DNA of 64,000 nt. Source: Taibaiella lutea (GTDB taxonomy: Bacteria > Bacteroidota > Bacteroidia > Chitinophagales > Chitinophagaceae). The stretch is taken from the NCBI RefSeq assembly GCF_008629695.1, contig NZ_VWSH01000001.1:1205990-1269989 (forward strand). The letters are read 5' to 3'. Below, piece by piece: positions 53,506 to 58,330 of this stretch. Both the position numbers and the translations under genes were made by a program. How positions within the stretch are numbered: position 1 is the first letter of the stretch; each line of letters starts with the position of its first letter. Below the pieces are notes generated by a model. The model ran no database searches. It had not been told where the DNA came from and worked only from the letters and a program-made list of their open reading frames with translations.

Positions 53506-53835
53506 ATTCAAGCCGAATTTACGGGTTATAATTAAACCATGAAGCATAAATTTCATCTTTAAATAACGATAAATGTTTTGAGGCGGAATAATATCTGCAA
53601 GGATTTTCAGTTTATTAAATCCTGTATAAACAAAATATTAAAGATTAATAAAATTTTGGCTACGGTTTTTCATAAAACATTCCGAACTTTGCCGCCGTTA
53701 AGGCAATCAAAGAATATATTTTTTGAATACGAAAAGCCCTGATTGGTTTTTTCTATCGGGCAATTAATTAAACGTTTGTTTAATTTAGGGAATTGCCTAA
53801 TTTTGCGGCGATAAATAAGCAATAATTTTTGGTGT
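53506..53835. other. 330-base divergent intergenic region
   Basis: Separates the DUF58 gene (minus) from the lipid gene cluster (plus). It contains a full-consensus promoter for the plus strand at 53775-53805. No RNA gene is seen. A repeated TTTT-rich stretch precedes the promoter. Confidence 0.6.
53775..53805 (+). promoter_or_regulatory. promoter of the lipid gene cluster
   Basis: TTTG (53775-53778) and TAATTTTG (53798-53805) are 19 bases apart, a full match to the Bacteroidota -33/-7 consensus. Transcription would start around 53812, giving a leader of about 25 nt before the ATG at 53836. Confidence 0.8.
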
Positions 53836-55164
53836 ATGAGTGAAGTTTCTTTCAGGGATAAAGCACAGCAGGGGATTTATAAAGTTATAAATCCTTTTGT
53901 TCGTTTCCTGATAAAATTGGGCCTTACGCCTAATGCCGTAACAACGATTGGTTTAATATTAAATATTGGTGTTGCGGTTATTTTTATCATTGGCGCCGAA
54001 AAAGGTAACAGAGGCGATTATAGCTATGTGGGTTGGGCCGGCGGCCTTATTTTATTTGCCGGTCTTTTTGATATGCTGGACGGACAGGTGGCGCGTTTAG
54101 GAAAAATGTCTTCTACTTTCGGTGCATTATATGATTCTGTTCTGGACCGTTACAGCGAACTGGTATTATTTCTGGGTATTTGCTATTATTTAATATCACA
54201 TCATTACTTTTTGAGCTCTCTTTTAGCTTTTGTTGCAATGATTGGTTCTATGATGGTAAGTTATACCAGAGCAAGAAGTGAAGGGCTTGGTATTGAAAAT
54301 AAAGGCGGATTGATGCAGCGGCCTGAAAGGGTTATTCTGATAGCGTTATCAGCCATAGCAACCGGTGTAGCTTCGGCATTTGTAGAAGGAGACGGCAAGG
54401 TTTATATTAAAGGTATCAGTTTCCATGTGTTTGAACTGATGAGCATTTTCACTATTCCTATTGCAGTATTGGCAGTCCTGACAAATATTACAGCATTTAA
54501 ACGTTTGATTAATGCAAAGAAAGCATTAGATAAAATAGACCAGGAAGATAAAATGAAAAATAAGAGCAACAGCAATATCGCTGCTATTATAATGTTTGCC
54601 CTGATATTGGCAAGCGGCTTTTCTGCAAAGGCGGATGGCCTGATTGATGACGGGAAGACTTTTAAGGAAGCAGTAGATACTTTTCCGGTTCCAAAGCTGA
54701 ATGCGCGTTCTTTATTTTATGTGCAACGTACACCCAATACCAATACCATCATGTATGAATTGAACATGAAGAACGGGGTATTGGATGAAGATAACCCGGT
54801 GCATGTATATTGGATCAGATATACGGAAGGCGGCAAGACGGCAGAATTATCATTTATTCAGCGTAAATTTGCCTACGGCGTTAAAGTCAGTAAATTAGCG
54901 GGAGAAAAATACAAATTGCTTTTTGCAGCTTATGATAAAATTCCTTTTTACCTGATGAAGTCAACAGCTGGTATTTATCATACTTATGTAGAGCTGGATG
55001 GTAAAATGGTTGTGTTAAACAGGCTTTATATACGTATTGACCCGGGTGGTACTTTTTGGGCACCTAATGTCAAATATGTTGAGTTTAAAGGCATAGAAGT
55101 TGCGACGGGCAAGGAAATCATTAAAAAGATAAATCCTAAATGGACGCCGCCTAAGCAATCCTGA
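53836..55164 (+). CDS. CDP-alcohol phosphatidyltransferase fused to a DUF4833-like exported domain
   Basis: A 442-residue two-part protein. Residues 1-235 are a CDP-alcohol phosphatidyltransferase with about six membrane helices and the full catalytic motif: D-x2-DG-x2-AR in DMLDGQVARLGK, then G-x3-D-x3-D in FGALYDSVLDRY. It would transfer a phosphatidyl group from CDP-diacylglycerol to an alcohol such as inositol phosphate. Residue 240 is a Met (codon 54553-54555) with CAGGAAG about 6 nt upstream, starting a second signal-peptide-like stretch (NIAAIIMFALILASGFSAKA). After it comes a beta-rich DUF4833-like domain to the end (VHVYWIRYTEGGKTAELSF). Either it is a true fusion or the second part is also translated alone. 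First gene of a lipid cluster. Confidence 0.88.
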   Translation: MSEVSFRDKAQQGIYKVINPFVRFLIKLGLTPNAVTTIGLILNIGVAVIFIIGAEKGNRGDYSYVGWAGGLILFAGLFDMLDGQVARLGKMSSTFGALYDSVLDRYSELVLFLGICYYLISHHYFLSSLLAFVAMIGSMMVSYTRARSEGLGIENKGGLMQRPERVILIALSAIATGVASAFVEGDGKVYIKGISFHVFELMSIFTIPIAVLAVLTNITAFKRLINAKKALDKIDQEDKMKNKSNSNIAAIIMFALILASGFSAKADGLIDDGKTFKEAVDTFPVPKLNARSLFYVQRTPNTNTIMYELNMKNGVLDEDNPVHVYWIRYTEGGKTAELSFIQRKFAYGVKVSKLAGEKYKLLFAAYDKIPFYLMKSTAGIYHTYVELDGKMVVLNRLYIRIDPGGTFWAPNVKYVEFKGIEVATGKEIIKKINPKWTPPKQS

Positions 55165-55195
55165 TTATCTTGAAATTTGAATTTAATAATATACA

Positions 55196-55819
55196 ATGGC
55201 TAAGAATTTTGTTTCCAATTCTACCGAATCTGTAAGGATGTTCAAAAGTGACTTTATGGAGTTCTTTTCCAGGGTGCATTGGACTGTTCCGATGATTACT
55301 TATATTCCGGTGGTTTTGTTTTTTATTTACCGTTCTTTCTTTGTAGCACACATTTCCGGTCTGTTATTTACAGGAATGTTTGTTGCGGGGCTTTTAAGCT
55401 GGACTTTATTTGAGTATATCATGCACCGCTGGATTTTCCATTTTGTACCAAAATCAAAATGGGGCCTGAGATTGCATTTTATTTTTCATGGCGTGCATCA
55501 TGATTATCCGAATGACATGAAACGATTGGTATTGCCTCTTTCTGTAAGTGTTCCGTTGGCGTTTGGTGTATATTTTGCTTTACGTGCTTTCATGCCGCCG
55601 GTTTATTTGTATCCATTCTTTTCGGCCTTCGTATTGGGTTATATCTTTTACGATACCGTTCACTATGCATTGCATCATTTTAATTTTAAAGGTGAATTCT
55701 GGAAGAAGATAAAAAAGCATCACATGCTGCATCATTATCAGGATTCATCTAAAGGGTTTGGCGTTAGTTCCGAATTATGGGACAAGGTTTTGAATTCAGG
55801 ATTCCCGAAGAAAAAGTAA
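55196..55819 (+). CDS. sterol desaturase / fatty acid hydroxylase family protein
   Basis: A 207-residue membrane-bound di-iron enzyme. The histidine boxes are clear: EYIMHRWIFHF, HFIFHGVHHDYP, HYALHHF and KKHHMLHHYQ. Three or four membrane helices surround them. The spacing matches fatty acid 2-hydroxylase (Scs7/FA2H) type enzymes, which hydroxylate the acyl chain of ceramides. The neighbours, a CDP-alcohol phosphatidyltransferase and an Aur1-like PAP2 protein, point to sphingolipid tailoring. Its TAA stop overlaps the next ATG (TAATG), so the two are translationally coupled. Confidence 0.9.
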   Translation: MAKNFVSNSTESVRMFKSDFMEFFSRVHWTVPMITYIPVVLFFIYRSFFVAHISGLLFTGMFVAGLLSWTLFEYIMHRWIFHFVPKSKWGLRLHFIFHGVHHDYPNDMKRLVLPLSVSVPLAFGVYFALRAFMPPVYLYPFFSAFVLGYIFYDTVHYALHHFNFKGEFWKKIKKHHMLHHYQDSSKGFGVSSELWDKVLNSGFPKKK

Positions 55820-56784
55820 TGAACCACCACAGTACAACAAAAGTTTCAAAAATGCACAGCGGTATGATGATACCGTTGTATAAGAGAATTATAATTGCCG
55901 CAGCAATTGCTATAGGCTATCTGGGCCTCTCTTCTGTCGTTGTCGGCTTCAGGCCTGACGAAGTATTTATTGCGGGCTTATTCTTTATTCTATACATCGC
56001 ATCAAAGAAGACAAGGAATTTTGTCCTGACACTTGCACCTTTTCTTGTGTTTTGGGTCATCTTTGACTATATGAAGGCGCTTCCGAACTACAAATTCAAT
56101 ACAGTGCACATTGGTGACTTGTACGAATTTGATAAGAAATATTTTGGTATTCACGTTAATGGTGTCTTGCTTTCGTTGAATGAGTATTGGGAATTGCACA
56201 GAACTGTATTTCTCGATGTCATTAACGGATTCTTTTATCTGTGCTGGATGCCTGTTCCTATAAGCTTTGCGGCATATTTATATACCAAAAACAGAAGAGG
56301 CGCTTTGGAGTTTTGCCTTACCTTTCTATTGACAAATTTTGTAGGCTTTATCGGTTATTATGGTTTTCCCGCTGCCCCACCCTGGTATGTTTATTATCAT
56401 GGTACTGCGTTTAATGCTGCTACACCGGGTAATGTTGCAGGACTTGCAGGGTTTGATAACTTTTTAGGCGTAAATATCTTTCATAGCCTTTATGCCAAGA
56501 GCTCCAATGTATTTGCGGCAATGCCTTCCCTGCATTCAGCTTATGTAGTGGTTTCGGTATTTTATGCCTTTAAGAAAAACGTTTCAACAGGCTGGAAGAT
56601 ATTCCTTACAACTGTAATGGTGGGCACATGGTTTGCCGCAATATATACGCACCATCATTATATTTCAGATGTGTTGATCGGAATTCTTTGTGCCCTAATC
56701 GGAATAGCAATTTTTCAGAGAATATTATTGCGCAACAAAGGATTTAATAAATTTATGAACGCCTATTACGGACAGGTAATTTAG
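55819..56784 (+). CDS. PAP2-superfamily protein, Aur1/inositol-phosphoceramide-synthase-like
   Basis: A 321-residue membrane protein from the ATG overlapping the previous stop codon; an in-frame earlier ATG at 55777 lies inside the hydroxylase gene and is rejected. It has about six helices. FPAAPPWY at 183-190 is an Aur1-type motif, PSLHS at 236-240 and HHHYISD at 278-284 are the PAP2 catalytic motifs with two His and one Asp. The combination suits the Aur1-type PAP2 branch that moves a phospho-alcohol head group from a phospholipid to ceramide. A simple lipid phosphatase is the alternative. It ends before a clear terminator. Confidence 0.88.
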   Translation: MNHHSTTKVSKMHSGMMIPLYKRIIIAAAIAIGYLGLSSVVVGFRPDEVFIAGLFFILYIASKKTRNFVLTLAPFLVFWVIFDYMKALPNYKFNTVHIGDLYEFDKKYFGIHVNGVLLSLNEYWELHRTVFLDVINGFFYLCWMPVPISFAAYLYTKNRRGALEFCLTFLLTNFVGFIGYYGFPAAPPWYVYYHGTAFNAATPGNVAGLAGFDNFLGVNIFHSLYAKSSNVFAAMPSLHSAYVVVSVFYAFKKNVSTGWKIFLTTVMVGTWFAAIYTHHHYISDVLIGILCALIGIAIFQRILLRNKGFNKFMNAYYGQVI

Positions 56785-56806
56785 CTGATAAAGATTATTA
56801 TAATGT

Positions 56807-56838
56807 AAATGGTGACCTATTCGGTCACCATTTTTTCA
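56807..56838 (+). terminator. terminator of the lipid gene cluster
   Basis: AAATGGTGACC and GGTCACCATTT form an 11-bp stem with a TATTC loop, followed by TTT, 22 nt past the PAP2 stop. It also lies downstream of the convergent VanZ-like gene. Confidence 0.9.
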
Positions 56839-57381: not shown

Positions 57382-57968
57382 TTTCTGAAAGCAAGTATTT
57401 TGTAATAACCGAATGGCTTTGACGGAATCATATATTGTAACCTGAATAAGTCAAGGGATTTTAAATCATTTATCAAAAAGTAAGAACGGAATTGAATCAG
57501 GTGTGCAAACGGGTGAAATATTATATTTATAAATCTTAAAGCATTGCCGGGTGTAAAGTGATTGAGAATAAACAGCTGTCCATCAGGTTTCAATACTCTG
57601 AAAGCCTCCTGCAGCATCGTTTCAGGGTGAGTAGTTACTGAAAGTACATGATTGATAATCACATAATCGAAGCTTTCCTTCTGAAATTTCATATCCTCAC
57701 CATCGGCCATAAACAGATGCACTCTTACTTGTGTTTCCCTCCTTTTAGCTCTGGCAAGCATTTTTGTTGAAAGGTCCACACCTGTAACAATATGCTTTTG
57801 ATAAAGCGGCAACATGGAACCATTGCCGACACCTATCTCCAATACATTCCCGGAAGGAAGGTTATTAATGATATTGGCCAGTTGTTTCTTCTGCTTTTTA
57901 AAAAATCTGTCCACAATGGGGTATAAAGGATACATGTAATTATAGAAATTGCCGGAATTATTTTTCAT
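57378..57968 (-). CDS. class I SAM-dependent methyltransferase
   Basis: A 196-residue methyltransferase from the ATG at 57968, whose first bases overlap the diacylglycerol kinase stop (ATGA). Motif I is NVLEIGVGNGSMLPLYQ; acidic loop 2 is VTGVDLSTKMLARAKRR; post-motif is FDYVIINHVLSVTTHPETMLQEAFRVLKPDGQLFI. Its resemblance to phospholipid N-methyltransferases (PmtA/UbiE side) suggests a lipid substrate but does not prove it. It sits between diacylglycerol kinase and a VanZ-like gene, all translationally coupled. Confidence 0.88.
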   Translation of the reverse strand: MKNNSGNFYNYMYPLYPIVDRFFKKQKKQLANIINNLPSGNVLEIGVGNGSMLPLYQKHIVTGVDLSTKMLARAKRRETQVRVHLFMADGEDMKFQKESFDYVIINHVLSVTTHPETMLQEAFRVLKPDGQLFILNHFTPGNALRFINIIFHPFAHLIQFRSYFLINDLKSLDLFRLQYMIPSKPFGYYKILAFRK

Positions 57969-58330
57969 GATGGCGAAAAGAAAAGAATGATGCCGATGAT
58001 AACGGCTGCAATTGCACATATAAGCACAGCAGCAGAGCTGATATCTTTTACCTGCTTGATAACAGGATGGTACTCTGTCTGAACTTTGTTACAAAGCCGC
58101 TCAATGGCTGTGTTAAAAGCTTCTGCCATCCACACCATTGCAATAATGCCAATCAGTATGCACCATTTTATAGTATTGAATCCACGGTACCAACCGGATG
58201 CAATGGCAATTATGGTTGCCATTAAATGAATCAGCATATTATGTTCTGTTGCGAATAATGTTTTAATACCTGTGAAAGCATATCCGAAACTTTTGAAATG
58301 ATATTTAAATAACTTTTTCATTTTTGTCAT
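57965..58330 (-). CDS. dgkA: diacylglycerol kinase family protein
   Basis: A 121-residue integral membrane kinase of the DgkA/undecaprenol-kinase type. It has a short amphipathic N-terminus (FKYHFKSFGYAFTGIKTLFATEHNMLIHL), then three helices. VWMAEAFNTAIERLCNKVQTEYHPVIKQVKDISSAAVLI holds the catalytic E-x2-NTAIE and the K-D-x2-SAAV segment. It phosphorylates diacylglycerol or undecaprenol. A second Met at 58321 is an alternative start. It leads a coupled three-gene operon. If the facing PAP2 enzyme releases diacylglycerol, this kinase could recycle it. Confidence 0.93.
   Translation of the reverse strand: MTKMKKLFKYHFKSFGYAFTGIKTLFATEHNMLIHLMATIIAIASGWYRGFNTIKWCILIGIIAMVWMAEAFNTAIERLCNKVQTEYHPVIKQVKDISSAAVLICAIAAVIIGIILFFSPS

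Follow-up and report, generated by a model that had tools for sequence, protein, structure and literature searches.

A candidate operon for head-group transfer and hydroxylation of phosphoinositol dihydroceramides in Taibaiella lutea

The window analysed here is a 64-kb stretch of the Taibaiella lutea genome (C1:1205990-1269989; genome 4.27 Mb, 99.6% complete), and all coordinates below are positions in it unless a locus is named. It carries a forward-strand operon of three genes that very probably encode the head-group and hydroxylation steps of phosphoinositol dihydroceramide synthesis. A sequence-only reading had placed three open reading frames here, and they lie where it put them. Its assignment of a CDP-alcohol phosphatidyltransferase, a hydroxylase and a PAP2 enzyme agrees with Pfam and NCBIfam, which give CDP-OH_P_transf with DUF4833, FA_hydroxylase and PAP2_3 for the following genes.

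53836-56784, forward strand: the whole operon, three genes (PIPS-DUF4833, Scs7/FA2H-type hydroxylase, AUR1-like PAP2)
53836-55164, forward strand: phosphatidylinositol phosphate synthase (PIPS) fused to DUF4833, 442 amino acids; PIPS at residues 6-238, a hydrophobic segment at 248-266 (hydropathy), DUF4833 at 294-431
54715-55128, forward strand: the DUF4833 domain (PF16117, 155 bits), predicted to be beta-rich
55196-55819, forward strand: Scs7/FA2H-type membrane hydroxylase (FAH), 207 amino acids, PF04116
55819-56784 (frame open from 55777), forward strand: AUR1-like PAP2 protein, candidate phosphoinositol (dihydro)ceramide synthase, 321 amino acids, PAP2_3

The first gene points to inositol as the head group. 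Its product scores 395.8 bits on NCBIfam model NF052561 (the PIPSynBT1523 equivalog; cut-off 350) and matches PIPS structures in the PDB at E 5e-21. The translation also contains, as DMLDGQVARLGKMSSTFGALYDSVLD, the pattern D-x2-DG-x2-AR-x8-G-x3-D-x3-D, the CDP-alcohol phosphotransferase motif. Whereas the sequence-only reading had allowed inositol or some other phospho-alcohol, inositol is the better founded of the two because PIPS scores above the cut-off of the BT1523 equivalog model.

The third gene product appears, from its motifs and predicted fold, to be an AUR1-like member of the wider inositol phosphorylceramide synthase family. FPAAPPWY, PSLHS and HHHYISD, all cited by the earlier reading, can be read in its translation, and the AUR1 blocks PAAPPWY, GLAR-D and PSLHS align with it. 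In a sequence-profile search no PDB protein other than AUR1 (E 3e-20 and 5e-20) matched with E up to 0.01, and comparison of the predicted model (mean pLDDT 83.9) with the PDB by Foldseek returned two matches with E up to 0.001, both of them AUR1 (E 5e-8 and 9e-8). The protein shares with yeast AUR1 the PAP2 fold, the PAAPPWY and GLAR-D blocks and the His/His/Asp pattern; it differs in its bacterial operon setting, and the two are 21% identical in the structural alignment. Among the five PAP2 matches of the genome only this one is strong on the synthase model (PhinosDhcerSyn), one other reaching 10.9 bits.

Between these two genes lies FAH, whose only PDB relative at E up to 0.1 is yeast Scs7 (E 1e-30). 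Within the aligned stretch 12 of 13 Scs7 histidines are conserved, and the GFGVxS...WD end also agrees with Scs7. FAH shares the histidine-rich metal-binding core of yeast Scs7 and mammalian FA2H; unlike them it is 207 residues long, and Pfam finds no cytochrome b5 domain in it. Of the earlier proposal that ceramide acyl chains are hydroxylated here, the Scs7/FA2H-type identity of the enzyme is supported, and the position of hydroxylation is one that we infer.

Most of the remaining pathway genes form a second block that starts at C1:1278218, 15.4 kb past the PAP2 gene and beyond the end of the window (locus L042, 15-21 kb downstream). This block holds serine palmitoyltransferase (SPT), a GNAT-like protein, inositol-phosphate synthase (MIPS), a PgpA-type phosphatase, GtrA and a DUF5686/CarboxypepD_reg protein like BT1527. 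The search of the genome for inositol-1-phosphate synthase and SPT that the sequence-only reading had proposed as a check finds both enzymes: SPT scores 732 bits on NF047600 (cut-off 640), and the best PDB match of MIPS is 7nwr (E 2e-169). By gene order, we take the GNAT protein (L042:10590-11729) to be the ceramide synthase, bCerS. The PgpA match is the only one in the genome, and the sole other CDP-alcohol phosphotransferase match is PssA-like (105 bits, cut-off 107); phosphatidylglycerol phosphate (PGP) is therefore unlikely as the substrate of PgpA, and a role as phosphatidylinositol phosphate (PIP) phosphatase, like that of BT1525, is favored.

We propose the following route from these parts, in which we infer the substrates, the position of hydroxylation, its order relative to head-group transfer, and the identity of bCerS. 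PIPS would use CDP-diacylglycerol to form PIP, from which the PgpA-type phosphatase would remove a phosphate to leave phosphatidylinositol. SPT and the presumed bCerS would build the ceramide backbone, and FAH would use oxygen to hydroxylate this ceramide, with acyl C2 as the most likely position. The AUR1-like protein would then move phosphoinositol from phosphatidylinositol to ceramide, freeing diacylglycerol that could be recycled by the diacylglycerol kinase DgkA encoded downstream of the operon. Passages of PMC11087976 place SPT and bCerS in the cytoplasm and the reductase CerR in the periplasm.

The same genes occur together in many relatives. When named genomes were scanned with the PAP2 alignment, at least 574 matches emerged, and the best 80, chosen by closeness to the query, were kept; gene counts in these 80 loci use the best hit per gene and are lower bounds, as many contigs or fetched flanks end early. 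In every one the detected genes lie on the same strand in the order SPT-bCerS-CerR-MIPS-PIPPh-GtrA-BT1527-PIPS-DUF4833-FAH-PAP2, where PIPPh is the PIP phosphatase and the names bCerS and CerR are presumed from position. All eleven genes are present in 28 loci, and individually we count SPT in 54, bCerS in 56, CerR in 55, MIPS in 65, PIPPh in 62, GtrA in 53, the BT1527-like gene in 71, PIPS in 79 and DUF4833 in 64. In 52 loci SPT, the presumed bCerS and the CerR-like gene are no more than 3.5 kb apart. FAH was detected in 62, directly between PIPS/DUF4833 and PAP2, so the hydroxylase does not set this layout apart as had been claimed; none was detected in two Spirosoma loci, which have the cluster core. 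The collinear arrangement extends over Chitinophaga, Mucilaginibacter, Pedobacter, Pontibacter, Rufibacter, Taibaiella and others, genera that are generally known as free-living.

The closest relatives among the matches listed are Taibaiella helva, T. koreensis and T. chishuiensis (L121-L123; 63-68% identity in PAP2), and the PIPS groups with theirs. These three have the short operon, and the other seven cluster genes were not found within about 10 kb on either side of their PAP2 gene, whereas T. soli (L137) has a contiguous cluster; the pathway therefore seems to have been split by a rearrangement in Taibaiella or close to it. In a sample of 296 genomes, an AUR1-like PAP2 (E up to 1e-15) is found in nine. 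MIPS is present in eight of these nine, as against 49 of the 296 overall, and a hydroxylase lies in the cluster in six of them.

The fusion that the sequence-only reading had singled out joins PIPS to DUF4833 across the hydrophobic segment and is not peculiar to this operon: the two share one reading frame in 29 of the 64 DUF4833-bearing loci among the best 80. On the PIPS tree the fused label takes 8 changes, 2 of which are forced by well-supported branches. An internal start at the in-frame ATG 54553 could stand in place of a fusion in the window, against which the junction contains no methionine in 7 of 30 fused relatives.

DUF4833 itself occurs in 20 copies in 19 of the 296 sampled genomes. 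Thirteen copies have a CDP-alcohol phosphotransferase no more than 5 kb away, where density alone would predict 0.08, and seven do not. The thirteen are of three kinds: six in the PIPS cluster, six in a set with a PhyH-type oxygenase, and one in locus L043. The PhyH set runs SDR - PhyH-type oxygenase - divergent CDP-alcohol phosphotransferase - GtrA - DUF4833 (L045, L047, L048, L052, L053 and L057; Pfam was run on L047 only, and the other five were joined to it by BLAST clustering) and may build another phospho-head-group lipid. At L043:9521-15523, DUF4833 stands beside a PfkB kinase, HAD, LPG_synthase_TM, a CDP-alcohol phosphotransferase and an NTP transferase. Because the seven genomes of the PhyH set and L043 (G190) have no MIPS match, DUF4833 is not tied to inositol.

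In five of the seven stand-alone copies examined, the protein starts with a stretch above the hydropathy threshold, and fused copies have a hydrophobic, signal-like junction stretch (judged by eye); since such a segment precedes the domain, DUF4833 is probably periplasmic. Its predicted model is confident and found no fold match by Foldseek (best E 0.036, low TM-scores); a sequence search of the PDB gave no match either, and the name DUF4833 was not found in the literature searched. We suggest that DUF4833 may serve the products of CDP-alcohol phosphotransferases as an accessory in the periplasm, perhaps handing lipid on. A role as the missing PIP phosphatase is not favored, as 54 of the 80 loci have both PIPPh and DUF4833 and the domain is probably periplasmic. 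The association with CDP-alcohol phosphotransferases looks new, and through it DUF4833 gains a testable context.

Could the operon end at phosphatidylinositol, with the PAP2 protein a plain lipid phosphatase? The protein does belong to the PAP2 superfamily, and it scores 339 bits on the curated equivalog NF052609, under the cut-off of 480, as do five of the six relatives scanned (315-343 bits); only L103, which comes from a BT-ordered cluster, passes, with 544. Yet sequence and fold match AUR1, and Bacillus PGP phosphatase, LpxE, acid phosphatases and PgpB are at Foldseek E 0.07 or worse. A PAP2 tree of 27 rows (24 of 30 selected loci, less 3 that were too short, so 21 and the window; the PAP2 proteins of the Taibaiella relatives are among those left out) separates AUR1 and 22 operon proteins from the four other PAP2 proteins of the genome by a branch with 100/97 support. 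The phylogenetic check that the sequence-only reading had named thus places the protein with yeast AUR1 and apart from its paralogs, with the caveat that the AUR1 and paralog branches are very long and the tree alone would not settle placement. On the AUR1 matches and the tree together we reject the plain phosphatase, which strikes us as extremely improbable. That the cluster makes a phosphoceramide with a different head group, another sugar or polyol phosphate, is very unlikely: the seven MIPS-free loci described above show that a neighborhood of DUF4833 and CDP-alcohol phosphotransferase is not bound to inositol, but here PIPS passes the BT1523 equivalog, and MIPS sits within the cluster in 65 of the 80 loci.

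The substrate of FAH leaves somewhat more room. Rather than ceramide at acyl C2, the enzyme might act on the sphingoid base (Sur2-like, at C4, giving phytoceramide), on free fatty acids or on some other lipid. The PF04116 superfamily includes sphingoid-base and other lipid hydroxylases, and no Sur2 structure was among the PDB matches, so the match to Scs7 does not discriminate against a Sur2-like activity. The family (E up to 1e-10) is present in 88 of the 296 genomes and also occurs outside such clusters; 15 of the 17 other hydroxylase contexts fetched have no pathway neighbors, and the other two have weak hits only (BT1527-like in L115, CerR-like in L116). The family is therefore in wide use, and its recruitment into the cluster is probable. 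The shared histidines and terminal motif nevertheless fit Scs7, and FAH adjoins the head-group transferase in 62 of the 80 loci; we consider the alternative substrates unlikely. Together with the NF052609 scores and these other hydroxylase contexts, three further observations weigh against the proposed route. The bCerS candidate has a weak Pfam GNAT match and drew nothing useful from the PDB search; the genome has no close CerR-like reductase (best 30% identity), though one is present in 55 of the 80 relative loci; and locus L049 (G249) combines a PIPS-DUF4833 fusion, AUR1-like PAP2, PIPPh and GtrA with no MIPS match, in a strain that may take up inositol. The module of phosphoinositol ceramide synthesis and hydroxylation put forward by the sequence-only reading is, on balance, supported by curated models, folds, gene order, pathway genes and the transferase phylogeny.

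Upstream of the operon lie two overlapping elements.

53775-53805, forward strand: Bacteroidota-type promoter, TTTG-N19-TAATTTTG (pattern TTTG-N19-TANNTTTG), 30 bases from the ATG
53766-53785, forward strand: candidate operator, palindrome AATTAAAC-GTTT-GTTTAATT over the -33 element; an identical copy precedes PIPS in L121-L123

The full-consensus promoter that had been reported is present. Its pattern occurs twice in the window against 0.7 by chance, and 13 of 100 shuffles reached two or more; the sigma-70 scan does not cover promoters of this type. A chance match is set aside on other grounds than this count, which is weak alone: the promoter is credible because of its place and its conservation in the three Taibaiella species (L121-L123), not because of its rarity.

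The palindrome AATTAAACGTTTGTTTAATT, which overlaps the -33 element of the PIPS promoter, recurs at other loci. With up to two mismatches allowed it has one match in the window (0.27 expected), and 12 places genome-wide against 7 for a backwards control pattern whose mismatches were not itemized. Perfect or one-mismatch copies are found at three places: the PIPS operon, MIPS (L042:11888-11907), and a TetR-family gene with TolC-like and HlyD-like genes downstream of it (L226, near 3372). A fourth place, with two mismatches and the same 17-base core, lies upstream of a second TolC-like/membrane-fusion pair (L227, near 3508); this core is expected 0.004-0.006 times by chance in the genome. At the SPT promoter (L042:9042) there is a shorter core, TAAAC-N4-GTTTA, with three mismatches to the full palindrome, and this shorter core is otherwise absent from the window and L042. 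Because the 17-mer stands upstream of PIPS in L121-L123 and has 0 copies in the other 77 named loci (1.47 Mb), T. soli included, the candidate operator is a feature at the level of Taibaiella and not of the wider cluster.

The TetR protein (L226:2674-3318) resembles several TetR models and scores below their cut-offs, Bacillus FadR among them (65 bits, cut-off 200). We suggest that it may be a repressor that binds these sites and controls both operons. The shared palindrome predicts a common regulon, which looks new; among the literature matches listed for TetR control of inositol sphingolipids, none was on target by title. A more tentative and rather doubtful extension is that one TetR regulon in Taibaiella takes in both the inositol-sphingolipid pathway and two drug-type efflux systems, that hydroxylated inositol ceramides would be an inducible envelope defense made together with efflux, and that DUF4833 would be a new periplasmic partner of CDP-alcohol phosphotransferases, handing fresh lipid to the head-group transferase. 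The shared operator makes such a link between membrane lipid and efflux testable.

The nearest known system is BT1522-BT1526, established for inositol lipids in B. thetaiotaomicron in passages of PMC9246714 and PMC8791184, from which the functions of BT1522, BT1523, BT1525 and BT1526 are taken (BT1525 as PIP phosphatase from PMC9246714). Both sets have PIPS, PIP phosphatase, GtrA, MIPS and an AUR1-like transferase, with a BT1527-like gene nearby. The cluster described here adds the FA2H-type hydroxylase and DUF4833 and includes SPT and the presumed bCerS; in T. lutea, moreover, PIPS is fused, the pathway is split between two places, and the PAP2 belongs to a more distant subfamily (below the cut-off). 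The Taibaiella operon is one half of a conserved cluster that is related to Bacteroides BT1522-1526 and carries a hydroxylase. Prevotella and B. vulgatus have an "alternative" inositol lipid cluster (PMC9246714), which L043 resembles in having genes for an NTP transferase, a CDP-alcohol phosphotransferase, HAD and LPG_synthase_TM. The L043 genome gave no MIPS match; the route encoded in the window is that of PIPS.

Some ceramide phosphoinositols of Sphingobacterium spiritivorum reportedly carry a 2-hydroxy acyl chain. Ceramide phosphoinositol in this species is cited in passages of PMC9246714, where homologs of either known cluster are described as absent or infrequent in Sphingobacterium; the inositol sphingolipid clusters treated in those passages and in parts of PMC8791184 are from gut or host-associated Bacteroidetes. 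PMC11334938 states that the genes for SPT, bCerS and CerR lie apart from one another in those Bacteroidota that produce sphingolipids; the 52 loci noted above differ from this if our naming of bCerS and CerR is right. For hydroxylation, passages of PMC10002949 report 2-hydroxylated sphingolipids in Flavobacterium and Sphingomonas species, with FA2H-like enzymes named for myxobacteria and P450 enzymes for Sphingomonas; they name no FA2H-like enzyme from Bacteroidota. Apart from that general review, no match listed in a literature search for bacterial FA2H in Bacteroidetes was on target by title. Taibaiella was not named in the matches listed for a Taibaiella search, and lipid terms were absent from those listed for inositol ceramide in free-living genera. 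Hydroxylated inositol ceramides are lipids of a kind that is also made in yeast, and these loci offer candidate genes for their synthesis outside the gut, in a hydroxylase-bearing collinear cluster found in many non-gut Bacteroidota with cultured strains available. The conserved supercluster, its hydroxylase, DUF4833 and the predicted regulon add to the interest.

Within the operon, the TAATG coupling of the last two genes is present, the FAH stop overlapping an in-frame ATG at 55819; because of this overlap, 55819 is more likely the PAP2 start than the first ATG of the frame at 55777. Two features lie downstream.

56807-56833, forward strand: terminator-like stem-loop, 11-pair stem (66-base stretch, -20.2 kcal/mol, z -3.5)
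57965-58330, reverse strand: prokaryotic diacylglycerol kinase (DgkA, PF01219), converging on the operon

The stem-loop is absent from the list produced by the terminator scan of the window. A diacylglycerol kinase gene occupies the same downstream place in L121-L123.

In nine of the 80 loci (L130, L132, L133, L140, L147, L175, L190, L194 and L199), and also in L046 and L055, MIPS and PIPS are present and no PgpA-type PIP phosphatase was detected in the cluster, the rest of these genomes not having been searched. Two metagenome bins, L181 (titled Williamsia, Actinomycetota) and L135 (titled Bacteroides), carry the environmental Bacteroidota form of the cluster, and these records may be mislabeled.

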